From: an uncultured Ruminococcus sp.
GTDB lineage: Bacteria > Bacillota > Clostridia > Oscillospirales > Ruminococcaceae
Assembly: GCA_945877315.1 (NCBI GenBank)
Contig: CAMCRP010000010.1
Span: forward strand, 1-64,000
Length of the DNA stretch: 64,000 nt
Reading direction: 5' to 3'
The notes beneath the pieces were generated by a model. That model was not told where the DNA came from. It searched no databases and saw only the letters and a list, made by a program, of their open reading frames with translations. Position numbers and translations under genes: made by a program. Numbering within the stretch: position 1 is the stretch's first letter; every line of letters starts with the position of its first letter. Shown here piece after piece: positions 10,285 through 64,000 of this stretch.

Positions 10285-10285
10285 A

Positions 10286-14129: not shown

Positions 14130-14144
14130 TTACGACACCTCCGA

Positions 14145-14513: not shown

Positions 14514-14667
14514 AGCAGGTTACTCCTTCCTGTAAGCGAAACCGTGAATGGTTTCTGCTTTAATATTGCCGTTCCATACACGCCGCCGTGCTGTTCCTGC
14601 CTGTAAGCGTACAAGCCACAGCATTTTCGGCGGACTATATGAACGTCTATTGCGATCAAACTGCTAA
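14514..14667 (-). other. Long non-coding gap inside the ribosomal operon (rpsQ-rplN)
   Basis: 154 bases without a gene in an operon where most neighbours are 1-25 bases apart. Two copies of CCTGTAAGCG lie about 70 bases apart, and there are several short inverted repeats. No promoter with a good -35 was seen. It may be a structured spacer, RNA-processing site or degenerated DNA. Confidence 0.4.
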
Positions 14668-14925
14668 TTACTTAGCCTGTTCGATAACTCTTGTGAGTCT
14701 CCATCTCTTATCCTTGGAGATAGGACGGGTTTCCATAACCTCAACGCGGTCGCCGATGTTGCAAACATTGTTCTCATCGTGAGCCTTGAGCTTTACGGTT
14801 CTCTTGATGATCTTCTTATAGAGCGGATGCTTAACGTTGTCAACGATAGCAACAACGATGGTCTTATCCATCTTGTTGGAAACAACGGTGCCGACTCTTG
14901 TTTTTCTAAGATTTCTTTCAGCCAC
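14668..14925 (-). CDS. rpsQ: 30S ribosomal protein S17
   Basis: S17, 85 residues, an OB-fold 16S rRNA-binding protein. [20 protein letters not shown] and [20 protein letters not shown] are diagnostic. It follows rpmC by 20 bases. Confidence 0.98.
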
Positions 14926-14945
14926 TGTTTAACCCTCCTTCGCAA

Positions 14946-15137
14946 TTATGCGTTTGTCTTCTCACGAAGAATAGTCATTACACGAGCGTAATCCTTCTTA
15001 ACAGCCTTGAGGCGTGCAGGATTATCAAGCTGGTTGACAGCGAGCTGGAAACGGAGAGCAAAAAGCTCTTTCTTGAGATCGGTGCGCTTGTTTTCAAGCT
15101 CTTCGATCGTCATATCTCTAACTTCAGATGCCTTCAT
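14946..15137 (-). CDS. rpmC: 50S ribosomal protein L29
   Basis: L29, 63 residues, a two-helix protein at the tunnel exit where trigger factor and SRP dock. ELFALRFQLAVNQLDNPARL is the family core. Its ATG overlaps the rplP stop by one base (TAATG), implying coupled translation. Confidence 0.97.
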   Translation of the reverse strand: MKASEVRDMTIEELENKRTDLKKELFALRFQLAVNQLDNPARLKAVKKDYARVMTILREKTNA

Positions 15138-15559
15138 TACTGCTCGCCTCCTTCTTCTTTTTTAACGAACTTGCACTTGATAGGAAGCTTGTGCATAGCA
15201 AGACGGAGAGCCTCTCTTGCGGTTTCCTCGGGAACACCGCTGATCTCGAACATAACTCTTCCGGGCTTTACAACAGCAACCCAGTATTCGGGAGAACCCT
15301 TACCGGAACCCATTCGTGTTTCAGCAGGCTTCTCAGTGATAGGCTTGTCGGGGAAAATCTTGATCCAAACCTGTCCGCCTCTCTTGATGTAACGTGTCAT
15401 CGCGATACGGGCAGCCTCGATCTGATTAGAGGTGATCCAAGCGGGCTCCAGTGCCTGAAGGCCGAACTCACCGTTGGAAACGGTGTTTCCTCTGTAAGCC
15501 TTACCTGTAAGTCTGCCTCTCTGTACTCGACGGTACTTAACTCTCTTTGGCAGCAGCAT
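15137..15559 (-). CDS. rplP: 50S ribosomal protein L16
   Basis: L16, 140 residues, near the A-site tRNA elbow. [20 protein letters not shown] and the [20 protein letters not shown] segment are diagnostic. Start and stop each overlap the neighbouring gene by one base (TAATG junctions with rpsC and rpmC). Confidence 0.98.
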
Positions 15560-16263
15560 TACTTGTTACCTCCTTCGCTCCTGTTTCTTCTGGGGCGTCT
15601 TTCCCTTGTTTCGGTGTTCTTGGGAGCAGCCTCGCCCTTCAGAACCTCGCCCTTATAGATCCAAACCTTAACGCCCAGACGGCCGTAGGTTGTGTGTGCC
15701 TCTGCAAAACCGTAGTCGATATCGGCTCTAATGGTCTGCAGGGGAATTGTACCCTCATGGTAGCTTTCAGCTCTTGCGATCTCGGCACCGCCAAGACGTC
15801 CGCTTACTCTGATCTTGATACCTCTTGCACCAAGACGCATTGCTCTGCCGATAGCCTGCTTCATAGCTCTTCTGAAGGACAATCTGTTCTCCAGCTGAGC
15901 AGCAATGCTCTCTGCAACCAGCTGAGAGTTAAGATCGGGCTGCTTTACCTCAACGATGTTGATAGCAACAGACTTGCCCATCATCTTCTCAACGCCGAGT
16001 CTGAGCTTCTCGATGTTTTCTCCGCCCTTACCGATAACAATACCGGGCTTAGCGCAGTTTACGTGGATTCTTACCTTATCAGCAAATCTTTCGATCTCGA
16101 TACGGGCAACGCCTGCTGCGTACAGGCTCTTCTTTATATAGTTACGAACGTTGTAATCCTCAACCAGAGTATCGCCGAAAGTTGCTTTGTTTGCAAACCA
16201 ACGGGAATCCCAATCCTTGATTACTCCCACACGAAGGCCGTGGGGATTTACTTTCTGGCCCAT
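15559..16263 (-). CDS. rpsC: 30S ribosomal protein S3
   Basis: S3, 234 residues, at the mRNA entry site. The N-terminal [15 protein letters not shown] and the KH domain with [13 protein letters not shown] are seen, followed by the C-terminal domain and a basic tail of Arg-rich residues. 24 bases after rplV. Confidence 0.98.
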
Positions 16264-16287
16264 AGTTTACCTCCTCTTTCAGCTTAA

Positions 16288-16623
16288 TTATTCCTTTTCC
16301 TTAACCACGATAGTAACGTGGGAAGTTCTCTTCAGGATACGGAATGCTTTGCCATGATCTCTGGGCATAATTCTCTTCATGATAGGTCCGGGGCAAACGT
16401 AGCATTCGGAAACGTAAAGGTTATCCTTATCCATATTGAAATTGTTCTCTGCGTTTGCAACAGCGGATTTCAGAAGCTTCTCCAGGTACTCACAGGCAGA
16501 TTTGGGTGTGTGCTTTAAAATCGCCATTGCGGTTTCAGTATCCTTGCCTCTGATAAGGTCAAGAACGATCTGAACCTTTCTGGGGGCGATACGAGCATTT
16601 TTAAGATATGCTCTTGCTTCCAT
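16288..16623 (-). CDS. rplV: 50S ribosomal protein L22
   Basis: L22, 111 residues, lines the exit tunnel. ARIAPRKVQIVLDLIRGKD and the tunnel beta-hairpin YVCPGPIMKRIMPRDHGKAF are visible. 20 bases after rpsS. Confidence 0.98.
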   Translation of the reverse strand: MEARAYLKNARIAPRKVQIVLDLIRGKDTETAMAILKHTPKSACEYLEKLLKSAVANAENNFNMDKDNLYVSECYVCPGPIMKRIMPRDHGKAFRILKRTSHVTIVVKEKE

Positions 16624-16643
16624 TTAAACTCCTCCTTTGCCTT

Positions 16644-16925
16644 TTACTTACCGTTATTGGATGTCTTTGAACCCGCATGACCCTTGTAGGTTCTGGTGGG
16701 TGCGAACTCGCCGAGCTTGTGTCCTACCATATCCTCTGTTACATAAACGGGAACGTGCTTGCGTCCGTCGTGAACAGCGAAGGTATGACCAACGAAATCA
16801 GGGAATATTGTAGAAGCACGGCTCCAGGTCTTGAGAACCTTCTTTTCGCCGGCCTTGTTCATTTCAACTACTCTCTTCAAAAGGACCTCCTGAACGTAAG
16901 GGCCTTTCTTGATGCTTCTGCTCAT
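16644..16925 (-). CDS. rpsS: 30S ribosomal protein S19
   Basis: S19, 93 residues, in the head of the small subunit. [19 protein letters not shown] and [18 protein letters not shown] are the family signatures. Separated from rplB by 85 bases. Confidence 0.98.
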
Positions 16926-17010
16926 GGTTTTCCTCCTCCCCTATGGGAAGCAAAGGGAAAGCTTTCGCTTTCGCACTTTTCTTCTCAGAGATTCTATAAA
17001 TCGAATGAAA

Positions 17011-17844
17011 TTATTTACCGTTTCTGCGCTTAACGATGAACTTGTCGGAACGGTTGTGGTTTGCTCTGGTCTTGTAACCGAGAGCGGGCTTGCCCCAAGG
17101 AGTAACAGGTCCGGGACGTCCGACAGGTGACTTACCTTCACCACCGCCGTGGGGGTGATCGCAGGGGTTCATTACGGAACCTCTAACGGTAGGTCTGATA
17201 CCCATGTGACGTGTACGTCCTGCCTTACCGAGGCTAACGTTTTCGTGGTCGATATTGCCAACCTGACCGACTGTAGCCATGCAGTTGACGGAAATCTTTC
17301 TCATTTCGCCGGAAGGAAGTCTTACGAGAGCGTAATCATCTTCCTTACCCATAAGCTGAGCCATGTTGCCTGCAGCACGAACGAGCTGTGCGCCCTTGCC
17401 GGGATAAAGCTCAAGGTTATGAATGAAGGTACCAACGGGGATATTTGCCAGTGCAAGAGCATTTCCGGGGATAATATCGGCATCTGCGCCTGCTCTGACA
17501 GTATCGCCGACCTTCAGGCCGTGGGGAGCGAGAATGTATCTCTTCTCGCCGTCCTCATACTGAACGAGAGCAATGTGTGCGGAACGGTTAGGATCGTATT
17601 CAAGAGTAAGAACAGTAGCATTCATGTTGAGCTTGTTTCTCTTGAAGTCGATAATTCTGTATTTTCTTCTGACTCCGCCGCCTCTGTGACGAACAGTGAT
17701 TCTGCCGTAGCTGTTTCTTCCTGCGTTCTTCTTGAGAGGAGCGAGCAGGCTCTTTTCGGGAGCTACCTTGGAAAGACCGCTATAATCGGTAACTGTCATC
17801 TGACGTCTTGACGGTGTAGTCGGCTTATAAGTCTTTATAGCCAT
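17011..17844 (-). CDS. rplB: 50S ribosomal protein L2
   Basis: L2, 277 residues, needed for subunit joining and peptidyl transfer. It has the RNA-binding OB and SH3-like domains and the C-terminal [20 protein letters not shown] with the conserved His. Normal length. Gaps of 88 and 85 bases separate it from rplW and rpsS. Confidence 0.98.
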
Positions 17845-17932
17845 TGTGCTTATTCAACTCCTTTGGTGGTTTTGCGGAAAGCCTGAGCCTTCCATACATT
17901 CCGCAGAGGATTTAACCCTCTGCTCCTTGGGA

Positions 17933-18226
17933 TCACATCATACCGTCGAAGAACTCGATGGTCTTGGAACCTTCTGCAAGAGTAACGATAGCCTTCTTCC
18001 AGGAAGGTGTCATGCCAACGTGCATACCCATTCTCTTCTGTCTGCCGCGGCAGTTCATTGTGTTCACCTTAGCAACCTTAACGCCGAACAGCTCCTCAAC
18101 TGCCTTGGCAATTTCGATCTTGTTAGCGTCCTTGGCTACCTTAAAGGTGTACTTCATGTCAGCGATACCTGACATACTTGCTTCGGTAATGACGGGCTTT
18201 AAGATAATATCCTGTGCAGCCTTCAT
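17933..18226 (-). CDS. rplW: 50S ribosomal protein L23
   Basis: L23, 97 residues, at the tunnel exit, the docking site for SRP and trigger factor. [11 protein letters not shown] at the N-terminus and the loop [20 protein letters not shown] are characteristic. Its start overlaps the rplD stop by one base. Confidence 0.98.
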
Positions 18227-18852
18227 TATGCGTACACCTCCTCGATCTTAGCAACAGCGTCCTGAGCAACGATGAACTTATCGTAGTTCAGAATGTCATA
18301 TACGTTGATGGTGTTTACCAGAGCAGTCTTAACACCGGGGATGTTAGCAGCGCTCTTGATAACCTTCTCGTCAACCTCAGGCATAACGATGAGAGCCTTG
18401 GAGCCCTCTGCGCCGATAGCCTTGAGCATGGAAACCATAGTCTTTGTCTTGAATTCCTCGGTCTTGATGGAATCAACAACGATCAGGTTGTTTTCAAGAA
18501 CCTTGGACGAAAGAGCGGACTTCATAGCAAGTCTTTTCAGCTTGCGGTTTACAGTGAAACGGTAGCTTCTGGGCTTAGGTCCGAGGGCGATACCGCCGTG
18601 TGTCCACTGAGGAGCTCTTGTAGAGCCCTGACGAGCGTGGCCTGTACCCTTCTGTCTCCAGGGCTTTCTTCCGCCGCCGCTTACCTCTGTTCTGGTAAGA
18701 GTGGACTGTGTGCCCTGACGCTGGTTAGCCAGATAATTCACTACCATAGTGTGCATAGCGGTCTTGTTGGGTTCAATACCGAACACCGCATCTGAAAGCT
18801 CAGTTTCGGAAACCTGTGAGCCCTGCATATTTAATACTGAAATCTTAGGCAT
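18226..18852 (-). CDS. rplD: 50S ribosomal protein L4
   Basis: L4, 208 residues from the ATG at 18852 ([13 protein letters not shown]). The tunnel-lining loop is visible as [20 protein letters not shown]. In gammaproteobacteria L4 represses its own operon by attenuation in the S10 leader; whether it does so here is untested, but the leader does carry a terminator-like hairpin. Confidence 0.98.
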
Positions 18853-18869
18853 TATGCTTCCTCCTTCCA

Positions 18870-19505
18870 CTAAGCCTTCTTAACGCAGTCAACGATGGTA
18901 ACTATTCCGTTCTTAGGTCCGGGAACAGCTCCCTTGATAGCGATAAGATTATTTTCAACGTCGATCTTAACGATCTCCAGATTCTGAACGGTAACCTTCT
19001 CGGCACCCATGTGTCCGGGGAGAGCCTTGCCCTTAAAAATTCTGGAAGGGAAAGAAATAGCACCCATAGAACCTGCGTGTCTGTGTACAGGGCCTGTACC
19101 GTGGGTCTCCTTCAGTCTGGAGTTGTTGTTTCTCTTGATAGTACCCTGGAAGCCCTTACCCTTGGAAGTACCGGAAACATCAACGATGTCGCCAACCTCA
19201 AAAGTATCAGCCTTCAGAATATCGCCGACGTTCTTTTCAGCTGTGTTTTCGAGTCTGAATTCCTTCAGAGTTCTCTTAACAGCAACGTCAGCCTTTGCAA
19301 AGTGACCCTTGATGGGCTTGTTTGCAAGCTTCTCGCGGAGGTCGCCGAAGCCGAGCTGAACAGCGTCATATCCGTCATTGTCAACAGTTTTCTTCTGTAC
19401 GACAACGCAGGGACCTGCTTCAACAACGGTAACGGGGATAACCTTGCCCGCTTCATCGAAAATCTGTGTCATACCGATTTTCTTACCGATGATTGCCTTT
19501 GTCAT
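18870..19505 (-). CDS. rplC: 50S ribosomal protein L3
   Basis: L3, 211 residues, an early assembly protein reaching toward the peptidyl transferase centre. It starts [20 protein letters not shown]. The extended finger has [16 protein letters not shown] and the glycine-rich [15 protein letters not shown]. 70 bases after rpsJ. Confidence 0.98.
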
Positions 19506-19575
19506 TATTTTTTCCTCCTTTTGGTTATTGGTCGGTCACCCGACATGACCCACAGGCTTGCATCTTTAAGAGATC

Positions 19576-19890
19576 TTACTTGATCTCCATTACGATGTCA
19601 ACACCCGCAGGAAGCTCAAGACCCTGCAGAGCCTCGGTGGTCTTTGCTGTAGGTCTGAGAACGTCGATGAGTCTCTTGTGAGTTCTCATCTCGAACTGCT
19701 CACGGCTATCCTTATCCTTGTGAACCGATCTCAGGATAGTAACTACTTCCTTGTCGGTAGGCAGGGGGATAGGACCGGAAACCTTAGCACCCGAACGCTT
19801 AGCCGCCTCTACGATTTTTGCAGAAGCTGCATCTACAACTGCGTGGTCGTAACCTTTGATCTTGATTCTGAGCTTTTCATTGACTGCCAC
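19576..19890 (-). CDS. rpsJ: 30S ribosomal protein S10
   Basis: S10, 104 residues, the first gene of the operon. It sits in the 30S head and also forms the NusB-S10 antitermination pair. [12 protein letters not shown]-like and [16 protein letters not shown] segments are family hallmarks. Preceded by AAGGAGGCGAT and by a leader of about 480 nt. Confidence 0.98.
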
Positions 19891-20370
19891 TAAAATCGCC
19901 TCCTTGATTAAACTTACTGTATGGGGACGAGTTCTGAATTTCGTTACACGCTACCGTGTGTATCGTCATTTATCAAATAAAAACAGCCCTGAAAGTTATC
20001 TTTCGGGGCAGTCTGACGTACATAGCACAAGCATACTTACAATAGTATCTGCAAACCCATTGCAGATCTACCGCAGTTTACGCACATTACCGTGTTCGCT
20101 ATTACAGCCGCCCAATTTTAAATCGGACATACTCCGCGGAAATTACCTGACAAACCGTCAGCAACCTTCCGTTTCTTCGCATATCTATTGCAGTCACGCA
20201 AGAAGTATTATAACATACAAATTACCGCATTTCAAGGATTTTTTATAAAATCCCGTGTAGAAATTTGCAGATATTTTCAGCTTGCTTTTGTGCAAATTTT
20301 ACAATGCCGCTTTCGGGAAATTTTCTGCAAAGTGACAATTTATCACCCGTCAAATCCCGTATCAGCCAAC
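19891..20370 (-). promoter_or_regulatory. Long 5' leader of the ribosomal protein operon
   Basis: About 480 nt separate the predicted transcription start (near 20370) from rpsJ, with no convincing gene on the minus strand. The leader holds a terminator-like hairpin at 19976-20009, roughly 85 nt before rpsJ, and smaller hairpins. It could be a control region for ribosomal protein synthesis, by analogy with, but not proven homology to, known S10 leaders. Confidence 0.6.
19976..20009 (-). terminator. Terminator-like hairpin (attenuator candidate) in the S10 leader
   Basis: On the minus strand GCCCCGAAAG pairs with CTTTCAGGGC around an ATAA loop (nine of ten pairs), followed by TGTTTTTATTT. Its position before an essential operon means it cannot terminate fully; it must be read through, so regulated attenuation is a reasonable inference. 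Confidence 0.65.
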
Positions 20371-20376
20371 TTTATT

Positions 20377-20405
20377 ATTATACCATATTTAAAGTGAAAT
20401 GTCAA
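20377..20405 (-). promoter_or_regulatory. Consensus promoter of the S10-spc-alpha operon
   Basis: On the minus strand TTGACA, a 17-base spacer and TATAAT, an exact match to the sigma-A consensus, as expected for a highly expressed ribosomal operon. Confidence 0.9.
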
Positions 20406-20964
20406 GGGGTTTTGTAAAAAAAGCATAGAAATCAGATTTTGAATAAAACATACGCAAACAGCTGTATGGGCGGGAAAATATGCGTCTTGACTGTTCCACT
20501 TTCTTTTGGTGACACCTCTTTTGTGACCTATTTTATTTTGCGCAACTCCCGCAGAGGGGAAACCTATATGGGAGGGCGACACAACAAACCCTAACGCAAA
20601 GCAGGGAGTTTCTCCCTCCCCTATCGGTTTCCCCTCTGCACTCCCCTTCCCTTTCACCTCTCCCTCTTTACCCTGCTTTACATTTTGATAATTGATAATA
20701 TATTGATTTCTGATGTGTATTTGTGTATGTTTGTTGTTTTACTATTTATTTGTGAGGTTCGTAAGTTTGAAAAGTTGCTTAATTAACCGAAAACGTGTGT
20801 AACTGCGATACTGTAAATCCAAGCTAAGTTCTCGCTGAAATAATGACAAATCCCGTATTCAAAACAACTCTCAGCTCTCATAATTCAACACTCAACACTC
20901 ATCACTCATCACTCAACACTGATTAAAGTAACTGAATTATCTCCGTATTGTAATCAAAATGTAA
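20406..20964. other. Gene-free region
   Basis: About 560 bases between the ribosomal promoter and the next lipoprotein promoter. It contains pyrimidine-rich tracts and, at 20883-20925, a short CAACACT/CATCACT tandem repeat like that at 3935-3970. A 104-codon minus-strand frame here has low-complexity composition and no recognisable domain, so I do not call a gene. Confidence 0.5.
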
Positions 20965-37624: not shown

Positions 37625-40600
37625 TTATAGAAACGACAGCTGCTCCGTTCTGTAAAAAGCGTGTTCAAGCTCCTGTAACGGTTCAACTTCAAGAGTTTCA
37701 ATACTGCTGAGCGGTCTTGCTTTCAGCTTTAGCATATAACTGTTGCTGAAGCATTTAACAATTTCGGCTGTATCAAGGTGAGTAAAGCATATCAGCTGAA
37801 TTCTGAATTTTCTCGCTATCTCAAACATTGGCGTAAGCAAATGCGCCGATGAAATTGGTCCGAACGGATTATCGAGTATCAGCACTCCACTTGAATCCTT
37901 TATCGAATTGGATATACTGCGTGAGAAATTCATCATTGATAAAATAAGCGCAAAGAAAACAACAAAACGTTCTCCGCCCGAGTTGGCTTTTAATGCGTTT
38001 TCCCATTTGCGATATGAGCTTGTCTGTACCGAATTTCCTATTTTATAAACCGAAACAGGTATCTCGTCATTTCCGATATAACAGTTGAGCAGTCTGCGGT
38101 AATTCATGATCTTATGCGCCGACTGTTCACGAACGCGGATATCGGTTTCTTCATAATTATTCAGATATTCTTTAACGCTGCTTTCAATGTACTGCTCCAT
38201 TCTGGTTTTTGAAGCCGTATCATCCTGCGCAATTTCGGGCAGATCTATTCTTATCATCTGTTTATTCTGTTCAAATATTTTTACAGAAGATTTCTTTGCA
38301 AGGTTTTTCAGATCATCATACAGCGATTTGATCCTTTGCATACAATGACTTACAAGTTCAATTTTACTGCTTTCAATATCTCTGAGTTCAGTATCAAGGC
38401 GACCTCTCTCCTTTTCAAGTGTCCGCATATCCTGTTCAAGTTTTTCATCCATCGTAAAATACTTATCTTTTTCGGTTTCATTATTGATGAATCCGATAAG
38501 CTGCCCGATAATGTTTTTGAACATCAGACCACATTCCGAATATTTTGAAAGATTGCCCTTTATCCAATTGAGAGCATCCTTTTCAGCTTTCTGTAAACTC
38601 TTTTCAGAGCTTTCGATCCTACTGCGGACCTTTTCTATCATGTGATCGGATATCTCGATTATATGGTGAATATCATTGTTATCATGATATTTTTCTGCAA
38701 TGATTTCTGATTGACCAAGTTCATATTTATGCTTATCAATTTCTGATTCTGCGCTTCTTATTTTTTTATTGATAACCTCAATCAAATCAGTACATTCTTT
38801 GATACGAGAATCAAAATCCGCTCCTATTTCCGATTTGGGCAAAACCTCCTTACCAAAATCACTGATCTTTTTCTCCGTTTTCGACAATTTTTCCGCAAGC
38901 TGCTTTAGTTTTTCTTCGTGAGTTGCGGACTCTCTCACAAGTTTTTTCAGCTCATCTTCTGCAGCTGCCCTTGCAGCTTCTTCTCGATTATATGCTTCTT
39001 CCGAATATTCAACAACGCTGTATTCCTCTTCCGAAACGTCCATATCATCAAGCCTTCTTATCAGCCTTGCTATTTTTTCACTGCACTTCTCAAGGGCGTT
39101 ATCCAGCCTCTGCTTATCATTGTCAAATTCTTTACGAAAAGCATCAAATTCTGCTTTCAGTTCATCATAGGGTTCGGAAAGCAGCTCTGCGTTATCTCCG
39201 TCGGTTTCGAAATAAACCTTTAGATACTCCGTTTTCTTTTCTGCCGCAGATCTCTGCGCACTTGCAATTTCTTCTGACAATACCTTTAATTTATCCAGAC
39301 TGTCAGTTACAGAGTTGATTCGGTTTTTCAAGCAGTTCATTCGTTCTTCGTTTTTGGAAATGCTGCTCAAAGTATTATAATACTCGTCCATTTTACAACA
39401 TATCTCCCCGAAACGAGATTTCCTTTGTTCGAGCTTCAACAGTTCATTTGATAATTCCTTCTGACGATCATTAATTTTTTCTCTGCGTTCGGAAAGCTTC
39501 TTGTTATCGTTATTGATACTGTTGATCTGGTTATCTATATTTTGAAGCTTGTCCGACAATGCCCTTTGTTCGGCTGATTTTTCACTTCTGTAACCTTCGG
39601 GATAATCAAAATCACGAACAGCAGAAAGCTGTGATTCCCTCTCGGAAAGCTTTCCTTGTAAATACTGCAATTCTTCATTCTTTTTATCGATCATTTCGCT
39701 GATATTTTTGATATACGAATCCCTATCATTGAAATATCCGTGTGAATATGCAGTAAGGAATTGCGAACCGTCTGTTTTCTTCCCCTCGGTAATGTCTGAA
39801 ATTTCCGAAAGAGTAAACACAGGTATCGCTGCAGAGATCCAGCTGTCAACATTAATGCTGTCATAAATATTACGGCGAGCTTTATCGTCATTTACAATAA
39901 CAGAAAAAGCCACAAGCGGTTCAACATCCAGTATTGTGTCGCAAAGCTCCTTATGCTCCGAGAGATAAGCCGTACCCGTCTGATACTCGACACTCGTATT
40001 ATCAAGAAAATCAACAGCACTTTGCGGAATATGAACATTACCCTTCTCGGCATTGAGCTTCTGTTCCAATAAGCTTTCTTTTCTTCGATCACAAAACTTT
40101 ATTTCGTCACTCAGCTGAGCGATTTTGGAAACAAGCTCATTTTCAGGTTCTTTTGTAAATGCTTGCTTTTCTGCCATAGACAAGGACATAAGCACATCAC
40201 AAACAGCTTTGAATATTACGTCATATTCAGCAAGCTCCGCTTCAACTTTAGCAAAATCACGATCGGTTTCATATTTTTTTATATTCAATTCGGATATTTT
40301 TCTCTGATTATCGATAACTCTTTCTTCAATCTGCTTGTATTCTTTAGAGAGATCTTCGATTTCATTAAGCATTGCAGTTATATCCAATGCAAAACGCTGT
40401 TTTACATCTTCAATTTCTTTGGGATCATATATGTCATCAAGCTTTTTGGTAATGCTGATATTCAAATCCGATAATCCCTTAGAAATATCACTGTCAAGCT
40501 GATCTCTTTGACCGCTAATTTTATCGGTTTCCGACTTTAATCCGCTGTGTTCCGATGAAAGCTTATTCTGTTTATCGGTAAGCTCATTTATATTTGCAGT

Positions 40601-41926
40601 ATTATCTGCAATTTTCTCTGAAAGTTCTGCAAGCTTTTTCTCAATATCCACCAAAAGCTTTTCTGCGGCAATATGCAAAGAATAACGTACCGAGCTTATA
40701 TGTGCATCAAAATCACTGTCTGTCATTCTTCTTAATTGTGTCTGCAGTTCGATCTGTCTTGCTTTTTGCTCAACCAATTCGCTGTACTTCTCTGCCGCAT
40801 GAAGCACCTTTATATTATGCTCGGCGTTATCCTTTTTTAAATTTGCATAATTTGTCTTTCGGGCAAGCTCATCCACAAGCAGTTCTTCGTTTTCCTTGAA
40901 CGCCGTATCACGATACCAGCTGTAAGAAAGCTGTTCAAGCTCAATATGAAGTTTGTTTTCTTCTGAAGCATTTTTATCATTTGAAAGCTGTTCAAGCTGT
41001 AATTTTTCCTTTGATATAGCATCTTTCAGACTGACGATATAATCAAAAAGCTGCCTTACAGAACTCTGATTTTCATCATACAAATTCCAAAGCTGCTTTA
41101 CCTGCGGAACGAACTCGTTAAGCTGCCCGATAAAATCACCTATTCTCTTTCTCTGCTCGATCTTCTCCGACATCTGCGCACAGCTTTCCGCATAGTGCAT
41201 AAACATTTCATCAACAGATTCATCTGCAGCATCATTTATTCCCTTTCCTGCTGTGATCCCGGGAATAATGAAACGATCAAGCAGTTTATCGGTCGTGTTA
41301 TACCCCTCTATAAATTGCTCGATACCGCCCTCACGCTCGTTTATCTTAACAAGAATATTTTCCCATTCGCTGTGAATGATACCGAATTCATCAAGTCTTG
41401 ACTGATATTTTTTTACATCATCCGAATGATAGTATTCAAGACTTTTCGCCATCGAGCGCACCTTTTCAAATCGGGCAGGAACAAATCGTCCTTCCTCTCT
41501 TTCCGAAAGAGGAAAATTCACAATATCATATTTATCTCCCGTGCGGCCATAATGATTGATAAAGGTAAAGTATTTTACAGCCCTGTTTTCATCCGATTCA
41601 TTTGTACTCTGGCTTGAAGTTATGGCAATACCCGTCATAAGATGATCCGATGAACGGTCAAGCTTCCATTCAAGAAGTATGTAGGCACAGTCAGAGCTTT
41701 TGCGGAAATAATCACTAATTCTTCTTGCCTGGACCTTTGCTCCGGGAATAACAGGCTGTAAAAGCAGCTGAACAAGGACAGTTTTTCCGCCTCCGTTTTC
41801 AAGGTCAAGGAGAGTATCCATAGTATTGCCGTCAGAATCATCAAAAACAAAAATCTCATCGGGAATAAATCTTGTACCGTCATTATAGTAGAAATTCACT
41901 ATTCTCGCTCTGCTTATTGATGGCAT
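37625..41926 (-). CDS. jetC: Wadjet JetC, SMC/MukB-like ATPase
   Basis: SMC-type ATPase of 1433 residues. Walker A is at 42-49 (LENGGGKT), the ABC signature NSGGERF near 1316, Walker B VLILDNPFG near 1348-1355 and an H-loop CFTH near 1380. Between lie roughly 1000 residues of coiled coil rich in Glu, Lys and Ser. With JetA (kleisin-like) and JetB it would form a MukBEF-like loop-extruding complex that recognises small circular DNA, with JetD cutting it. The residue after the Walker B Asp is Asn, not the usual catalytic Glu; this may be a family trait. Its ATG overlaps the jetB stop by one base. Probably the last gene of the operon. Confidence 0.88.
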   Translation of the reverse strand: MPSISRARIVNFYYNDGTRFIPDEIFVFDDSDGNTMDTLLDLENGGGKTVLVQLLLQPVIPGAKVQARRISDYFRKSSDCAYILLEWKLDRSSDHLMTGIAITSSQSTNESDENRAVKYFTFINHYGRTGDKYDIVNFPLSEREEGRFVPARFEKVRSMAKSLEYYHSDDVKKYQSRLDEFGIIHSEWENILVKINEREGGIEQFIEGYNTTDKLLDRFIIPGITAGKGINDAADESVDEMFMHYAESCAQMSEKIEQRKRIGDFIGQLNEFVPQVKQLWNLYDENQSSVRQLFDYIVSLKDAISKEKLQLEQLSNDKNASEENKLHIELEQLSYSWYRDTAFKENEELLVDELARKTNYANLKKDNAEHNIKVLHAAEKYSELVEQKARQIELQTQLRRMTDSDFDAHISSVRYSLHIAAEKLLVDIEKKLAELSEKIADNTANINELTDKQNKLSSEHSGLKSETDKISGQRDQLDSDISKGLSDLNISITKKLDDIYDPKEIEDVKQRFALDITAMLNEIEDLSKEYKQIEERVIDNQRKISELNIKKYETDRDFAKVEAELAEYDVIFKAVCDVLMSLSMAEKQAFTKEPENELVSKIAQLSDEIKFCDRRKESLLEQKLNAEKGNVHIPQSAVDFLDNTSVEYQTGTAYLSEHKELCDTILDVEPLVAFSVIVNDDKARRNIYDSINVDSWISAAIPVFTLSEISDITEGKKTDGSQFLTAYSHGYFNDRDSYIKNISEMIDKKNEELQYLQGKLSERESQLSAVRDFDYPEGYRSEKSAEQRALSDKLQNIDNQINSINNDNKKLSERREKINDRQKELSNELLKLEQRKSRFGEICCKMDEYYNTLSSISKNEERMNCLKNRINSVTDSLDKLKVLSEEIASAQRSAAEKKTEYLKVYFETDGDNAELLSEPYDELKAEFDAFRKEFDNDKQRLDNALEKCSEKIARLIRRLDDMDVSEEEYSVVEYSEEAYNREEAARAAAEDELKKLVRESATHEEKLKQLAEKLSKTEKKISDFGKEVLPKSEIGADFDSRIKECTDLIEVINKKIRSAESEIDKHKYELGQSEIIAEKYHDNNDIHHIIEISDHMIEKVRSRIESSEKSLQKAEKDALNWIKGNLSKYSECGLMFKNIIGQLIGFINNETEKDKYFTMDEKLEQDMRTLEKERGRLDTELRDIESSKIELVSHCMQRIKSLYDDLKNLAKKSSVKIFEQNKQMIRIDLPEIAQDDTASKTRMEQYIESSVKEYLNNYEETDIRVREQSAHKIMNYRRLLNCYIGNDEIPVSVYKIGNSVQTSSYRKWENALKANSGGERFVVFFALILSMMNFSRSISNSIKDSSGVLILDNPFGPISSAHLLTPMFEIARKFRIQLICFTHLDTAEIVKCFSNSYMLKLKARPLSSIETLEVEPLQELEHAFYRTEQLSFL

Positions 41927-42612
41927 TACTCTTCTCCCCTCTCAAATATGGAATTGACCTCTGCAACTCGCTGTTGGCTCAAGAAATACGGCATAAGGTC
42001 GGATAGCTTCTGTGTTGGCTTGTAAACATTAGGTTCAGATTCATAAATAAGCTCTTCTTCTCTTAATTTTCTGATAACCTTCATAATAGCACCGTTCATA
42101 TTATCAGCACTGTTATTGTCAATATCATTTCTTTTGGAGAGCCAACCGGCTGCAAGCTTGCAAAACTCAATGCTGTATTTTTCCGAAGCGTGCTCATATT
42201 CCTGTTCTTCCTCTCTGATCTTACGGCAATGCTCGGAAAACTCCTGTATCATATCGGAAACAACAAACATTTCACGAGTTTCAAGATTATTTCCCTTTCC
42301 GCCGTACATCGAATGAAGAATAAATACAGCAAGATAATTGTATAAATAGATGTCGGATATCTTTGCATCGGAGCCAACAGAACGTTTATAATCAGCGTTA
42401 TTCTGCAAAAATAATTCATTGGACTGATCGGGTATCAGATATATCCTTCTCGGAGTTTTAAAAAGCTTGAATTCAAACTCCTGCTGCAGCATAGCAAAGT
42501 CATCGGATACTTCATCGTCGTAATAATACGAAAATAATTCTTCATCATTTTCTTTTTCAATATAACCGTTATTCATTAATGCTCTGAATAGCTTTGCTGT
42601 CCTGATATTCAT
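41926..42612 (-). CDS. jetB: Wadjet JetB, MukE-like subunit
   Basis: Protein of 228 residues, starting MNIRTAKLFRALMNNGYIEK. Its size, mostly helical winged-helix character and position directly before the SMC gene fit JetB, the MukE/KITE-like subunit. I do not see a strong motif beyond this, so the call rests on context. Its ATG overlaps the jetA stop (ATGA) and its stop overlaps jetC (TAATG), so all three are translationally coupled. GAGGTGATAAG precedes the start. Confidence 0.8.
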   Translation of the reverse strand: MNIRTAKLFRALMNNGYIEKENDEELFSYYYDDEVSDDFAMLQQEFEFKLFKTPRRIYLIPDQSNELFLQNNADYKRSVGSDAKISDIYLYNYLAVFILHSMYGGKGNNLETREMFVVSDMIQEFSEHCRKIREEEQEYEHASEKYSIEFCKLAAGWLSKRNDIDNNSADNMNGAIMKVIRKLREEELIYESEPNVYKPTQKLSDLMPYFLSQQRVAEVNSIFERGEE

Positions 42613-44141
42613 CTTATCACCTCAATTTCAAAGTCATTGGAGAATATCTTCATTTGACCTTCTATCGTAAATTCACACACTTCATTCAGCCTGTCAATAC
42701 GAACGCTTTTTATGTTTAACAGTTCATCGGTCAATTCACTTAAGCAATATGCGAGATCAAATTCACCCGATGGAATAATAATATTCCTTTCGCTGTTTTT
42801 CCAACCCTCTATATCGATCTCGCCCATTGAAAAAAGCTTCATCATAACATCAAGCAATGAATTCTCTTTACACATTTCCGATAAATCTTCCATACCGATC
42901 GAATCAACAAATCCGCTGAATTTAGATTTATCATCATTCCTGATGTAAGAAAACAAAGCCTTGATGATCGCAGCATACCGCTTGTCCCGTATCTCTTCAA
43001 TGGATATGATCTGCTCATCTCCTGCTGTCAGATCAACATACCCCGATTCGGCTTCTTCACGAAGCTTTTTCTGAATGCCATAAAAGCTTTCTATGCTGAA
43101 ATACCGAGGAAATCTCGGCTTAAATAAAGGTACAAGAAGCTTTGAAAGATCGGATATTCCATCTGTCTTTACCCTTTGCATAGGTTCAAGGATCGTTTTC
43201 TCAAAATCAAATCTTTTTGAAAGCATATCAGAAAAATCCGATTCAAGAATGTCCGCATAGCATTTTCCCATAGAGAATTTTTTATTATATATCCTTGTCT
43301 GTTCGCTGATAACTACATCTATGTTTTTCAGTATTTTATTAATTTCACGCTCTGTATTTTCAGCATTTGCAATGATCGTTCCGCTGTTTGCCGAGTCAAT
43401 TATAGCATCAAGCTGTGCCGAAACAGCCGATCTTATTTCATTCATCTGATTGCTTTCGTCTTCAAATGCACTTTCGACCTGCTTTATAAGCTCATCATAT
43501 TCATCGACTGATATCTTTGATATATTTGTCTTGCAGCGAAGCATAAAATCGTCCATTTTGCCCCTTAATCTTCGAACCATACTTACAAGCTCGTTGCTCT
43601 GACTTAAAGCCTTTGAATAATTCCCACGCTTGATAAATTCCTGCAGCTTGAATCTGCTGACCGAAAATTCAAGCTCCGTATCGATTTCTTTTGTTCTGAA
43701 AAGAAATTCATATACTTCATCTGTGAGTGTATAGCAGCCGCTATGATCATCAAGCAAATACAGATTATCTTCGGCAAAGTCCCGATCAATATTATTATAG
43801 TTTCTGAACGTTACCACTTTACCGCTGTTTCTGAGAATATCATTAACGATAAACTCGGTCAGTACATCGGCTTTTTCGGCAGGATAACCATAAACCTCCG
43901 ACATTTCACGCAAAAATCGGGATATATCCTTCTTGCTGCATTTTTCTCCGTATCGAAGTGTACTGTCCATTATGAAAACAAGCACTGCAATCACAAGATT
44001 ATCCATCATATCCTGATCGTCGGGGAAAAAATCTTTTATTTCGTCAGTAAATCCGTGCTTTTTGATATACTTGATAACATTAACAAACTTCATTCGCTTT
44101 TCAAAGCCTTCAAGCAGCTCCTTAGTTTCATTGGACAGCAT
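42609..44141 (-). CDS. jetA: Wadjet JetA, kleisin (MukF)-like subunit
   Basis: Protein of 510 residues from the ATG at 44141, chosen because GAGG lies eight bases upstream; an in-frame GTG at 44150 overlaps the jetD stop. It is mostly helical, with a winged-helix-like N-terminal half and a coiled region (KQVESAFEDESNQMNEIRSA). Size and position match the kleisin-like JetA of clostridial Wadjet systems, which bridges the SMC heads. No clear sequence motif; the assignment depends on the neighbours jetB, jetC and jetD. Confidence 0.8.
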   Translation of the reverse strand: MLSNETKELLEGFEKRMKFVNVIKYIKKHGFTDEIKDFFPDDQDMMDNLVIAVLVFIMDSTLRYGEKCSKKDISRFLREMSEVYGYPAEKADVLTEFIVNDILRNSGKVVTFRNYNNIDRDFAEDNLYLLDDHSGCYTLTDEVYEFLFRTKEIDTELEFSVSRFKLQEFIKRGNYSKALSQSNELVSMVRRLRGKMDDFMLRCKTNISKISVDEYDELIKQVESAFEDESNQMNEIRSAVSAQLDAIIDSANSGTIIANAENTEREINKILKNIDVVISEQTRIYNKKFSMGKCYADILESDFSDMLSKRFDFEKTILEPMQRVKTDGISDLSKLLVPLFKPRFPRYFSIESFYGIQKKLREEAESGYVDLTAGDEQIISIEEIRDKRYAAIIKALFSYIRNDDKSKFSGFVDSIGMEDLSEMCKENSLLDVMMKLFSMGEIDIEGWKNSERNIIIPSGEFDLAYCLSELTDELLNIKSVRIDRLNEVCEFTIEGQMKIFSNDFEIEVIR

Positions 44142-44146
44142 ATATC

Positions 44147-45136
44147 TCACCTCGAATTGTTTTTAAGCACCTCGTAATTGATTATCTCCTGCGGAAGCCG
44201 CTTGTCTGCAAACAAAACATCATTTATTTTATCTATTTCTTCATCGGAAAACAGTTCACGCAAACCGTCTGTTTCAATGTCTTTTCCGCGTTTGTCATCA
44301 CTCTCGGGCAACGATGAAACATCGGCAAACTCGAGCATTTTCTTATATATCGGCGCAAAAAGTTCAATATCGAATTCAGCGGCTTCTTTACACAAACGAT
44401 AGAAAATATCAAAACCCGCTCTGTCAATATCGCCGCAGTACAGAAGAGATAATTTGCCCGAATTCAGAAAACGAGCATAAGACGAAAACTTACCTTTTCC
44501 GGTAACATCATTCCCTTGTCCATATATAACGCCGTCAATATGAACGCCAAAAAACTCGTAACAGCTTTCCTCTGCCATTAGTCTGCGGATATTAAACCAA
44601 ATATCCTTGTTTTCACATATTAGCAGCGTCATATTTTCTTTTCTCTGTGGAATATAATCGGAAAAGCACTGCTCGGGAGTTGTATAGAACTTCAAATCAT
44701 TTTCCGTTAGTCCGATCGACTGCATTAATGAAATGTTATTATCAAGATACTTTTCCTCACCGAACAACTGAAAAGAACGCTCTCTGCGTGAAATATAGCA
44801 TTTCTCTGAATTGTCCTGCAAAAACCTGCTTATTGCTGTCAGCTCGGCTTGGTTTTTCTCAAACGCTTCGGGCTTTCTCAATAAATAACCATTTGCAACA
44901 AGTTTCGGATGCAGCTTTTTTATCTCGGAAATAGTTACGCTGTGATCTTCTTTTTCGGTCACAATGCTGTATTTTTTATAAAGAGGATTTCTGAGATTTC
45001 CGTTTGTTCCGCTGCTTTTCAACGGAACAAGCTTGCCCTCAGTGACAAAAGATAATATCTCCTGTTCGCTGATTTCGGCTGATAATAATTCTTCAAGTGT
45101 TACTCGCTTTTTCTTGAATTTATTTAGTTTATTCAT
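44147..45136 (-). CDS. jetD: Wadjet JetD, Toprim nuclease
   Basis: Protein of 329 residues with an N-terminal DNA-binding part and a C-terminal Toprim domain related to topoisomerase VI subunit A. The catalytic residues can be placed: Glu175 in LLICENKDIW, and Asp236 and Asp238 in LLYCGDIDRAGFDIF. JetD cleaves plasmid DNA captured by JetABC. Here it is the first gene, whereas the best-known Wadjet operons run A-B-C-D. It is preceded by, and overlaps, a 44-codon truncated frame. Confidence 0.87.
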   Translation of the reverse strand: MNKLNKFKKKRVTLEELLSAEISEQEILSFVTEGKLVPLKSSGTNGNLRNPLYKKYSIVTEKEDHSVTISEIKKLHPKLVANGYLLRKPEAFEKNQAELTAISRFLQDNSEKCYISRRERSFQLFGEEKYLDNNISLMQSIGLTENDLKFYTTPEQCFSDYIPQRKENMTLLICENKDIWFNIRRLMAEESCYEFFGVHIDGVIYGQGNDVTGKGKFSSYARFLNSGKLSLLYCGDIDRAGFDIFYRLCKEAAEFDIELFAPIYKKMLEFADVSSLPESDDKRGKDIETDGLRELFSDEEIDKINDVLFADKRLPQEIINYEVLKNNSR

Positions 45137-59272: not shown

Positions 59273-59299
59273 TAAAGTTATTCACCCTTTTGCCGATAT
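59273..59299 (+). promoter_or_regulatory. Sigma-28 (FliA/SigD) flagellar promoter
   Basis: TAAA, a 15-base spacer and GCCGATAT match the sigma-28 consensus TAAA-N15-GCCGATAA with one mismatch. It is about 48 bases upstream of the flagellin start. Confidence 0.88.
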
Positions 59300-59346
59300 A
59301 TAAATAAGATAAGGTGTGCCCGTTTACGAACAAAGGAAGTGTTTCG

Positions 59347-62300
59347 ATGACCATCAATAACTTATTCGGCTCCGACCCGCTCATTAACCGCAGCAAAAGG
59401 AATACCACAAAGCTTCAGAAATCTATTGAGAAGCTTGCAAGCGGATATAGAATAAACAACGCTGCCGATGATGCGGCGGGGCTTGCTGTGTCCGAAAAAA
59501 TGCGCACTATCATTGCGGGGCTTCAGCAGGGCGTAAAAAATATTGATGACGGCATCAGCTACCTTCATTCTCAGGACGGTTCCGCACAGGAGATACACAA
59601 CATTCTTCACAGGCTGGAGCAGCTGGCTGTTCAGGCTGCCAACGGTACTTATACCGATGTTGACAGAGATGCCATCGACTGCGAATATCAGCAGCTTATC
59701 GACGAAATAGGGCACATTACCGATACACATAATTTCAACGAGCTTCCGCTTTTTGAGAAGCATATGAAATCCTACGGACTGAATGAAGGCGCAGTTGTCC
59801 ACGACAAGCCTATTGAGATAAGCGGTTCCAACACTCCCGCAGTTATCGGGTATACCATTGACGGCAAGCAGCAGGAATTTACCATTGATATTCCTTACGG
59901 CACTTATGATGCGGGCGAGCTTGCGGATATGATAGACACTATCCTTTTTGAAAAGGCACCTAATCTTATTATCGGTCTTAACGAGCAAAATCAGTTCACT
60001 ATGCAGACAGAACCGGGACGCCTTGACTATATCGGAGGCCCCGGGGCAAGCCTTTTCTATGATTCGACAATAGGCTCGGCGGACGGTCATCTGCTGGGCG
60101 TTACAATGTTCACGACGGATCAGGCAAGGCTGGAAATTGTCAGCGGCGGAAACGATGTTATGTCTTTCCGTCTGGGGGAGGACGATACCGTTCATTCCAT
60201 CACCCTTGACCCCGGAAGATACACCAGATTAGAGCTTGTTGACCATATCAACAGCAAGCTTGAAGCATCGGGAATTCCCGGAAATGTTCACGCAGTTGCC
60301 GAAACTAACAAGGAAGGCGGCAAGATCATCGGACTTGCCAGCACCGAAACCATTACGGGTCTTACGGGAAATTTCCTGAAAATGGACAATATGACCTCTC
60401 CCATCTACGACATTGCAAATTACGGATATACCGACAACAAAGCGTCTGTGCTGTCGGGAAAAAAGATAATCCTTTCCAACACCGAGATAGTAAGAGGACG
60501 CAACGACTACTTCACCCTTGATCTGAAATGGTACGCAGATGACGGCTCTCAGGACAGCCGCAGGGTAACGGTAAAGCTTCTGGACGACGGGGAAAACGAA
60601 AAGGTGTACGGCTCCCCCACAGACATTACCGCAAGAATAAACGAGCAGCTGGACGGTCTGCCCTTTACTGCGGAGATAAATCCGTCGGGCTGCATTGAGA
60701 TAAAATCGGAACAGTTCGGAGATAAGTGCAGCGTGGATCTGGTAGAAAGTGCCGCTCCAAGCAAATATATGGTATACGACCTTTTTGATTCGGGAACGCT
60801 CACCAAGCTGAATCCGTCCGTGACGACCTCAAGATTTCAGGCAGCATACCTTACCTCAAAGAAGGAGCTTGATACAAGCATTGTCATTCCCCCCGACGAA
60901 AATGAGCTTGTGTTCAATATTACTGCCGACGGCGGGAACAAAACGCTTAACATAACCATTCCCGCAGGAACATACGGCGCATCGGCTCTGGAGGCTGCGC
61001 TGAATAACGAAATAGCAGCTTCCGCGCCCGATCTGGCAGGCAAGCTGGAATTTACCGTGGGAAAAAATATCACCCTGTCCGCAGTGAAGTATGACGGAGC
61101 GGATATCAGCAGGATAACTGCGTCCTCATCGGCTTCGGGCTATGACAGGCTTATCGGCGGAGTTTATTACAGCAACAGCTATTCTATAACAAACGGCTCC
61201 GAAAAGACTTATATCACCGAAACGGGTACCATGCCTTCGGGAAAGCCCGCTGCAACAGCTACCGCAGGCTCATCTGTGAACGTAGTAAGCTATCGGGACG
61301 ATACTTCTTCCGCCTATCAGCAGCAGGGCAGTTACCTTAACTACAACAAAGCGGCAGTCACCTTTGAAAACGGAAAAGAGGTATTTACCGACCCAAGCGA
61401 ATCCATTGTCGGAGATGAACGAACAGATACCTATCCCGCAAAAATGACCATGAAGGACGTTCTGACGCAGTTTTCCGCCGCAGGGACTTCTCTTCGGGAT
61501 ATTAATCTGGCGTTTTCGCTAAAGGATAAATCGGGGTCAAAAAGCTTCAATATCACGGTACCAAAGGGCTCCACAGCATCACAGGCTATTGCTGCCATCA
61601 ACAGCAGTCTGGACGGCAGAGCCACCGCAAGGGCAGACGGAAACAGCCTTATCATCACCACAACAGCAGAGGGTGACGGCGTTACCATAACACCCGCAGT
61701 TTGCGATATGGCGTATACCGCAAGCAAATCCTCCCTTGCTTCAAATTCCGATGCGGTCATTGATATGGAGCATAACAGAGTGTACATTCCCTCAAAGCTG
61801 ACCGTTCCCAAAGCCAACACGCAGATACCCCTTACCGTTGACTCTGCCAATGACAAATTCATCTTTACGGCAGGTCAGACAAATTACAATCTTACACTTA
61901 CTCATAAGGAGTATTCAAGCATCTCGGATATTGCTTCTGAACTCAACAGACTTATTTCCGAAAAGGACGGAGGAACACCAAAAACCACCGTGACCGTCAG
62001 CGGAAATGCCCTTGTTTTCAAGGGACCCTATGCAGAATCGGGCAGGATAACCGTCAGCCCGTCAAGCACCTGCAATATCCATATGACAAAGGTAGTTGCT
62101 TCGACTGCAGGCAATCCTAACTACAATCCCGCAACAGGAAAAATAGAAAATCCTGCAACGCTTACCGCAGCAGGCTTCAGCTCCCATTTTCCCATGACGG
62201 TCACTTCTGCAAACAATACGGTGACCTTCAGATACACTTCCCCCGCAAACGGCACAAAAAATGTTACGCTCATTATCCCCGACGGTACCTATTCCACACC

Positions 62301-64000
62301 CGCAGAGGCAGCACAAAAGCTCAGCGATGCTATCAATGCTGACCCCGACCTTCGTGACGAAATATCGGTAAGCTATTCCTCTAACGGACTCACCTTCAAG
62401 ACCCAAAAGGGCGGCGACGGTTATTCCCTTACCGACCTTGGGGGAACCGCAAACATCGACAAATACATCTCAAAGGCAAATGTAGGCAGCGGCGGAAGCG
62501 TCGATCCCACCATAAACAAGGTGCTCTATCCCGCAAAGATAACAAACAGCAATTTCGGCACACTCTTTTCGGGAAAGGGTCTTAACATAGCAAGCTCAAA
62601 CAAGCACGTGGCTCTCGTTGTGGGCGGAAATACCGTGGAATTTGACCTGACCGAAGGAAATTATTCGGGCACATCGGGAATGAACGATATTCTTTCTCAG
62701 CTGCAAAACGGATTTAGCGGACAGGGAATCACCGTTTCGCTGAGCGGCTCTCAGCTGGTTATGACTACCGATGACAAGGGCAATTCCGCCCTCATCTCCA
62801 TGAGCCCCGCAAACACATCTCCCGTATTCAAGCGGGCAGTACCGGTCAGCAAGGAAAGCACTGTGGGAAGGACAGATTCCCGCTGCACTATTATAGGAAG
62901 AACAAATATCGGCAGTATCACCATCTCCGACTATGACAATAAAATGTCCTTTGATTATGCCACAACAGTCGCAGGAAATCCCGTTTCGGGAAAGGCGGAT
63001 ATTTCCGTTCCGCCCGGAACATACACCGCAGATACACTTGCTGCGGCACTGCAAAGCTCCATTGATAACCTTCTTGGAGCAAATGAACTGCAAGTGTTCG
63101 TGTCGGGCGGACGTATCGGAATAAAAGGCGCAACACCCTCCGATTCACGCTCCATAAGCAATTTCAGCGGACGGCTTTTCGATAACGTTTTTCAGGACGC
63201 ACGATATAGCGGAATAACAGCCCATACGGAAACGCCCGGAACAACTATGGGAAGCAAGCTGTCCTACATTATCGGCAGAAACAGCCTTGAGCCCGAAACC
63301 GCCGAGGAGATTGAATCGAAAAAGAACGTCGTTATATACACGGGGCTTAACGACACCGTTATATTCGATTTGAATTATGACGGCGATATATCAAAAATCG
63401 AATTCACCATACCCGCAGGAGATTACGACAGAAAGGAGCTTGCGGATATTATCGAGGAAAAGGGCAGAGAACAGTTCGCACGCCTTACCGACAAAAACGG
63501 CAAGCCCTTCCCCGCAGACTTTTTCAACGTTTCCGTGGGACTTTCCGAGCTTGGCGTTCCCGAAAACAATACGGGTATTTCCAGCTCTGACAAGCTGGTG
63601 TTCTGGTGCAAGCTTCCCGACGACGGACGAAACGAACAGATAACTGCCATAGTTGACGGTGTAAGAGGAAATGCCGCTTACAGAATATTCTATGATGCCA
63701 CAAAGTCGCCCCAGCCCTCAATTTTTATGGGCAAGCCTGACCTGTCCGACGGTATTGTTATAGATGACAGCAATAACATCTTCGGCTTTGAGCTTGACAA
63801 TGTTCCGTACAGCGTCGAAATCCCCCGAGGAGAATATACCTTGGACGAGCTGGCGGATACCCTAAACAGAAGCTTTGAGGATATGGGCTCCATTGTAAGG
63901 ACAGGACACAGAAACGGTCACCTTATGTTCTACACTGCCAAAAACGGCGACTATATTTTCAATAAATTCTTCGGTACAGCTGCCGATGACCTTGTTTACG
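59347..64000 (+). CDS. Giant flagellin, partial (runs off the window)
   Basis: Open for 1551 codons without a stop to the window edge. ATG 59347 follows AAAGGA by nine bases. Residues 1-140 are a normal flagellin D0/D1 N-terminus: NRSKRNTTKLQKSIEKLASG, YRINNAADDAAGLAVSEKMR, IDDGISYLHSQDGSAQEI, LEQLAVQAANGTYTDVDR. After that comes a very long variable region of at least ten divergent repeats of about 100-135 residues, each with a strand-turn-helix motif such as FNITVPKGSTASQAIAAINS or LNITIPAGTYGASALEAAL (near residues 178, 283, 533, 734, 848, 973, 1098, 1217, 1352 and 1489), like the flagellin IN motif. Ordinary flagellins have 270-500 residues. The C-terminal D0 domain is not in the window. 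Secreted by the flagellar export apparatus to form the filament, or a sheath on it. Confidence 0.92.
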   Translation, partial: MTINNLFGSDPLINRSKRNTTKLQKSIEKLASGYRINNAADDAAGLAVSEKMRTIIAGLQQGVKNIDDGISYLHSQDGSAQEIHNILHRLEQLAVQAANGTYTDVDRDAIDCEYQQLIDEIGHITDTHNFNELPLFEKHMKSYGLNEGAVVHDKPIEISGSNTPAVIGYTIDGKQQEFTIDIPYGTYDAGELADMIDTILFEKAPNLIIGLNEQNQFTMQTEPGRLDYIGGPGASLFYDSTIGSADGHLLGVTMFTTDQARLEIVSGGNDVMSFRLGEDDTVHSITLDPGRYTRLELVDHINSKLEASGIPGNVHAVAETNKEGGKIIGLASTETITGLTGNFLKMDNMTSPIYDIANYGYTDNKASVLSGKKIILSNTEIVRGRNDYFTLDLKWYADDGSQDSRRVTVKLLDDGENEKVYGSPTDITARINEQLDGLPFTAEINPSGCIEIKSEQFGDKCSVDLVESAAPSKYMVYDLFDSGTLTKLNPSVTTSRFQAAYLTSKKELDTSIVIPPDENELVFNITADGGNKTLNITIPAGTYGASALEAALNNEIAASAPDLAGKLEFTVGKNITLSAVKYDGADISRITASSSASGYDRLIGGVYYSNSYSITNGSEKTYITETGTMPSGKPAATATAGSSVNVVSYRDDTSSAYQQQGSYLNYNKAAVTFENGKEVFTDPSESIVGDERTDTYPAKMTMKDVLTQFSAAGTSLRDINLAFSLKDKSGSKSFNITVPKGSTASQAIAAINSSLDGRATARADGNSLIITTTAEGDGVTITPAVCDMAYTASKSSLASNSDAVIDMEHNRVYIPSKLTVPKANTQIPLTVDSANDKFIFTAGQTNYNLTLTHKEYSSISDIASELNRLISEKDGGTPKTTVTVSGNALVFKGPYAESGRITVSPSSTCNIHMTKVVASTAGNPNYNPATGKIENPATLTAAGFSSHFPMTVTSANNTVTFRYTSPANGTKNVTLIIPDGTYSTPAEAAQKLSDAINADPDLRDEISVSYSSNGLTFKTQKGGDGYSLTDLGGTANIDKYISKANVGSGGSVDPTINKVLYPAKITNSNFGTLFSGKGLNIASSNKHVALVVGGNTVEFDLTEGNYSGTSGMNDILSQLQNGFSGQGITVSLSGSQLVMTTDDKGNSALISMSPANTSPVFKRAVPVSKESTVGRTDSRCTIIGRTNIGSITISDYDNKMSFDYATTVAGNPVSGKADISVPPGTYTADTLAAALQSSIDNLLGANELQVFVSGGRIGIKGATPSDSRSISNFSGRLFDNVFQDARYSGITAHTETPGTTMGSKLSYIIGRNSLEPETAEEIESKKNVVIYTGLNDTVIFDLNYDGDISKIEFTIPAGDYDRKELADIIEEKGREQFARLTDKNGKPFPADFFNVSVGLSELGVPENNTGISSSDKLVFWCKLPDDGRNEQITAIVDGVRGNAAYRIFYDATKSPQPSIFMGKPDLSDGIVIDDSNNIFGFELDNVPYSVEIPRGEYTLDELADTLNRSFEDMGSIVRTGHRNGHLMFYTAKNGDYIFNKFFGTAADDLVY

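Follow-up and report, generated by a model that had tools for sequence, protein, structure and literature searches.

The window, i.e. the whole 64,000-base stretch of DNA that was analysed, carries on its forward strand a gene for a giant flagellin, in which the two ends of an ordinary flagellin core enclose an array of 11 modules, and which is intact and, judged by its substitution pattern, under purifying selection. Sequence comparison places the protein in a clostridial family whose members have about 6–11 modules, with fixed ends and a variable middle. The protein is probably a conserved component with a special place in the flagellum, and not the material that makes up most of it.

Gene, flagellin core and module array

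The contig has 66,555 bases, of which the window takes in the first 64,000, and belongs to a genome of 3.3 Mb and 138 contigs. The frame starts with ATG at 59347 and has no stop within the window, as the initial annotation had read it (more than 1550 residues), and it continues on the same contig to a stop ending at base 64416, resulting in a protein of 1,689 residues, 181.8 kDa and pI 4.85, more than three times the usual flagellin size. The N-terminal D0/D1 core (residues 1–138; 59347–59760), where the annotation had read the first 140 residues as classical flagellin, matches Flagellin_N (PF00669) at residues 14–138 with an E-value of 4e-32, above the curated Pfam cut-off. The C-terminal D0 domain that the annotation had looked for past 64000 is found there as Flagellin_C (PF00700; residues 1612–1688, contig bases 64177–64410, E-value 1e-10, 42 bits against a cut-off of 23), and with both core ends present and many divergent repeats between them the reading as a giant flagellin stands. 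The protein scored 156 bits against flagellin models and 78.5 bits against the FlgL model TIGR02550, which is below the FlgL cut-off of 127; on these sequence scores it is a flagellin and not the hook-junction protein FlgL. None of the full-length NCBIfam flagellin cut-offs was reached, as expected at such length.

The D0 of the giant is the most diverged from ordinary flagellins, with a stem of about 1.0 in the N-domain tree, and the flagellin homologues FlaE and FlaF of Vibrio are reported not to build the filament (PMC8306008). Both points would suit a secreted homologue acting as a matrix or soluble protein outside any filament, but this is very unlikely, as the core ends are conserved among orthologues and, by inspection, equal the ordinary flagellin of the same genome in length and register.

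Two further features were recorded on the contig. Downstream of the giant gene and beyond the window lies a broken IS630-like transposase (contig C10 64728–65331, L005 8728–9331), one piece of which matches DDE_3 with an E-value of 3e-14. A complete type III Wadjet (JetABCD) system is located on the reverse strand at 37625–45136 of the window, with E-values of 2e-107 (JetC3), 7e-53 (JetB3), 1e-116 (JetA3) and 3e-71 (JetD3).

Between the core ends, 11 modules of 61–99 residues were picked by eye for their shared pattern before testing, a choice that favours them. Counted from the N-terminus, these are M1 (residues 154–224; 59806–60018), M2 (260–334; 60124–60348), M3 (379–457; 60481–60717), M4 (510–582; 60874–61092), M5 (715–775; 61489–61671), M6 (825–895; 61819–62031), M7 (947–1022; 62185–62412), M8 (1077–1144; 62575–62778), M9 (1189–1264; 62911–63138), M10 (1326–1424; 63322–63618) and M11 (1468–1533; 63748–63945), all on the forward strand. 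When each module was compared with the profile of the other ten and with 1,000 shuffles of itself, ten of the 11 scored 14.8–41.1 bits, better than all their shuffles, which rules out chance repeats as their explanation; M3, the weakest member, was marginal at 6.5 bits (equalled by 5 of 1,000 shuffles), and its membership of the family is weakly supported by sequence. A profile scan recovered exactly 11 modules in each complete orthologue, M3 of the window protein included, and gave no module match in the non-modular segment between M4 and M5 (residues 583–714; 61093–61488). The annotated count of at least ten divergent modules is thus borne out by ten strongly supported members of one family and a weaker eleventh. 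The pattern IP-x-GTY followed by a helix, described in the same annotation, is real, and the tyrosine of GTY is the one nearly invariant column.

A model of M7, built from a 41-row alignment of modules, had a core pLDDT of 70–89 and the order beta-beta-(beta)-alpha-beta-beta, with a 14-residue helix between the strand pairs. This helix rules out a beta-helix repeat, and the repeated beta-helix unit proposed earlier has to be given up for a beta-beta-alpha-beta-beta domain. AlphaFold prediction of residues 600–1689 from a 4-row alignment gave a pTM of 0.24, at which the module cores alone are usable; the same elements recur in it at several modules. Foldseek with one module returned no hit below an E-value of 0.001 (best 0.016). 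Structure comparison listed the outer domains of Vibrio FlaC, FlaB and FlaD (Z about 7, 2.7–2.9 Å over about 100 residues), FliD D2–D3 and a phage tail sheath, with a viral capsid protein (EhV-201) at the top rank; since common folds reach such values, module matches at Z 5–7 indicate fold type and not ancestry. The module profile matched the P. aeruginosa B-type flagellin with an E-value of 0.008 and, very weakly, Salmonella FliD (E-value 2.4).

The description of the modules as IN-like finds support in M5, which reaches Flagellin_IN (PF07196) with an E-value of 1.6e-4 when the full-length protein is searched and of 2.9e-6 for a single module copy, the best of the three matching copies among 41; most modules fall short of the Pfam profile, and the whole protein scores 22.2 against a cut-off of 22.7. 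On the model, the modules are predicted to be small domains with the order beta-beta-alpha-beta-beta, of the same type as those of flagellin D2, FliD and Flagellin_IN. A PHROG match, phrog_19400 (8 members, E-value 1e-5), is without known function. No relative was found among viral contigs.

Orthologues and the wider clostridial family

Distribution was examined in samples of one genome per species. Besides the window gene, four complete orthologues were identified (G001, G223, G117 and G325), so that the five complete proteins span 1,689–1,704 residues. The giant of G001 (L046), from a water deer cecum, is 90% identical to that of the window, those of G223 (L048; Oscillospiraceae MAG SUG65) and G117 are 67% identical to it, and that of G325 is 54–56% identical to the others; G278 (L047), an uncultured Ruminococcus, carries a partial orthologue. 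The three named records are all MAGs. In L048, two GH5 endoglucanase-like genes and one beta-galactosidase-like gene, identified by reading, adjoin the giant on the opposite strand (15282–20690).

The pairs at 67% identity have just 7 gap columns over 1,689 aligned residues, and their identity per 60-residue block is 47–80% in the centre and about 62–88% in the core, which suggests that the centre is conserved about as much as the core, whereas ordinary flagellins have a hypervariable centre (PMC7018530). The dN/dS of the centre was 0.11 (0.058/0.53) for G000 and G001 and 0.08 (0.078/1.0) for G117 and G223.

Within the family of the window, the central profile was matched in 7 of 397 genomes, weakly in G365. 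A weak match in G002 was taken as chance, its frame overlapping a second long ORF whose translation resembles a different protein. Four further flagellins of this family, with open frames of 1,008–1,312 residues (G239:C183, L054; G275:C117, L053; G061:C7, L052; G293:C2, L055), lack the modules of the giant at an E-value of 1e-3 and represent independent routes to giant size.

In a class-wide sample, a genome of a different family and order (G1106) was found to encode a 1,808-residue flagellin with both Pfam ends. Its alignment with the giant of the window spans 1,531 columns at 29% identity (hhalign E-value 3e-60), with BLAST pieces in register at the front, middle and back. Of the 220 genomes sampled in the second family, 8 carry genes of the giant type, and the open frames of these are 1,262–1,824 residues long. 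Eleven modules were counted in G1141, G1144 and G1259, ten in G1252 and eight in G1150 and G1280, with nine detected in G1106 and six in the 994-residue protein of G365, from the window's own family. The counts leave out G1185 (C39 17553–22504, L167), where the front of the giant lies in a 172-residue frame and the remainder in one of 1,620 residues, owing either to a frameshift or to an error of assembly.

Between the window protein and the 11-module members of the second family, the modules correspond in register, zero being the sole offset that stands out (permutation p 5e-5, the smallest value possible in the test). The identity of M1, M2, M9, M10 and M11 is kept in most members of the second family, the 8-module proteins included, and that of the middle modules is not. 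Such a distribution suggests one old array, the ends of which have stayed fixed and the middle of which has gained or lost modules. In a tree of the 140-residue N-domain, the two groups of giants stand apart, each well supported, and forcing them into a single clade gave a p-AU of 0.06; a common N-domain clade of all giants is thereby neither shown nor rejected by sequence.

Promoter, codon usage and the proposed role

By pattern match, a sigma-28-type promoter (TAAAG-N14-GCCGATA) is located at 59273–59298, 74 bases upstream of the ATG, followed by a probable ribosome-binding site, AAAGGAAG, read from the sequence at 59332–59339; the giant of G117 has AAAAGGAGG at the equivalent position. The promoter pattern occurs once in the window against 0.02 expected. 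Genome-wide, gaps of 13–15 bases gave five matches, no more than the reversed control, and the number of matches is by itself no evidence; the three matches with a 14-base gap lie before the giant, before the flagellin on C47, and at C33:20266, heading an operon with flgK and flgL. A site of this type precedes all five complete giants as well as the genes of G365 and G1252, and was not found before the remaining members of the second family.

Codon adaptation, a rough proxy for abundance, was calculated against four ribosomal protein genes of the window, which belong to a cluster of S10/spc/alpha type identified by reading (4033–19505, reverse strand). The giant has a value of 0.467, next to a median of 0.466 for 37 genes, 0.71–0.74 for the ordinary flagellins and 0.59–0.62 for FlgK, FlgL and FliD; the ordinary flagellins thus resemble the genes of ribosomal proteins in codon usage. 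With the ordinary flagellin as the yardstick, the FlgL gene scores higher than the giant in G001 and, by a small margin, in G117. In the second family, the giant lies below the other ordinary flagellins in G1141, G1144, G1150, G1280 and G1106, and not clearly so in G1259. Such average codon usage would fit a minor component better than a bulk filament subunit.

Ordinary flagellins nearly always accompany the giant. In the window's genome, C47 and C54 encode them, and a further piece lies at the end of C20; full genes number one in G001, one in G117 and two in G365, and in the second family all eight carriers of a giant have them. In G223, G278 and G325 nothing but C-terminal fragments is seen, located at contig ends or close to them, and we read these as genes of ordinary flagellins that are broken; that the giant is the sole flagellin of G223 was dropped on finding 18-residue flagellin C-terminal ends at contig ends.

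A complete core, and a sigma-28-type promoter as for the ordinary flagellin, would also serve a bulk subunit of a separate thick filament, formed perhaps in some conditions only, as in Bermanella marisrubri. Giant flagellins do form filaments of at least 30 nm (PMC6248924), and a filament of the giant alone would measure 39–45 nm when scaled from Salmonella (24 nm) and Bermanella (30 nm) at standard helical spacing, with the Bermanella mass estimated from length. We hold this to be unlikely, as the codon usage is that of an average gene and the giant stands beside ordinary flagellins, whereas in B. marisrubri it is the only flagellin (PMC6248924).

The reading that we put forward, at about an even chance, is that of a minor subunit with a module stalk. 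Like other flagellins, the giant would be exported and would polymerise by way of D0/D1. Ordinary flagellin would make up most of the filament, with the giant dispersed along it or restricted to one stretch. From the core, the module chain would run outwards and return as a long stalk, a course that is established for flagellin chains (PMC6248924). M1–M2 and M9–M11 would lie close to the core, and the middle modules, which vary in number, at the periphery or tip. The likeliest benefit would be mechanical or contact-making in mucus or digesta, through stiffer, rougher or bundled filaments. Some minor flagellins, located close to the base of the filament, are known to alter motility in viscous media (PMC8306008), and P. 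aeruginosa requires the outer domains of its flagellin to move in a viscous environment (PMC10256154).

This minor-subunit reading is favoured by the presence of both core ends, the constant length with 11 modules at 54–90% identity, the dN/dS of about 0.1, the kept promoter and module order, the ordinary flagellins of the carriers and the codon adaptation that is low relative to them, as well as by the predicted likeness of the module fold to flagellin outer domains and FliD. Against it stand the codon score of the G1259 giant, the poor model of the module arrangement (the pTM given above), and the sigma-28-type promoter itself, FlaB-type minor flagellins usually using a sigma factor that differs from that of the major one.

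The long chain of surface domains, the gut hosts, the frequency of adhesive roles for flagella (PMC6248924) and the glycosidase-like genes beside one orthologue would all suit an adhesin that is carried by the flagellum and attaches to plant fibre, mucin or other cells. Yet Pfam at E-values up to 1 returned no known carbohydrate-binding or adhesin domain in the giant, isolated modules gave scattered weak single matches only, and the gene neighbourhood of the window differs from that of the orthologue with the glycosidase-like genes, so that we regard an adhesin as quite unlikely; for the plant-fibre binding suggested in the initial annotation, those neighbours are the sole hint. Adhesion is compatible with a minor subunit and could be its purpose.

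More tentatively, and as a possibility that we rate below even, the minor-subunit reading may be widened to a distinct and old clostridial class of flagellins, in which 6–11 modules of one fold with a fixed base and a variable middle would act as long side arms on a filament of another flagellin, giving bristled hetero-filaments whose reach evolves by repeat number.

Comparison with known giant flagellins

Flagellins of more than 1,000 residues, the published criterion for giants, which the 1,689-residue protein exceeds, are known from many phyla, Firmicutes included, and two species have been shown to have thick filaments (PMC6248924). What is new here is the repeat number, the plan of fixed ends and variable middle, and the co-occurrence with ordinary flagellins: in the literature open without subscription and apart from supplements, no report was found of an 11-module array or of giants beside ordinary flagellins, and nothing useful on giant flagellins in Ruminococcaceae and Lachnospiraceae. 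The finding suggests that a giant flagellin can occur without making up most of the filament, in line with its codon usage and with the ordinary flagellins that are retained in nearly all carriers. Across a natural ladder of 6, 8, 10 and 11 modules, the out-and-back folding of tandem outer domains and the purpose of the large size also become accessible to comparison.

As single domains, the modules are predicted to share the fold type of Flagellin_IN, FliD D2–D3 and the outer domains of Vibrio and Pseudomonas flagellins, which are proteins with one or a few such domains where the giant has 11. Eubacterium plexicaudatum and other Firmicutes are listed with giant flagellins too (PMC6248924); that of E. 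plexicaudatum, likewise from Clostridia, may be a member of the same family. The giants of Oceanospirillales (Bermanella marisrubri, 1,020 residues; Oleibacter marinus, 1,190 residues; PMC6248924) likewise exceed 1,000 residues with a centre grown by internal duplication, but they have one duplication (two tandem DE regions, compared by their description) and an insert, and are the only flagellin and shown to form the filament, whereas the clostridial giant has its 11 modules and ordinary flagellins beside it. Campylobacter FlaB, a second and less abundant flagellin beside the major one (PMC8306008), offers a purely functional analogy: FlaB is under sigma-54 control (PMC8306008), whereas the clostridial giant, a separate paralogue of far greater size, lies behind a sigma-28-type promoter.
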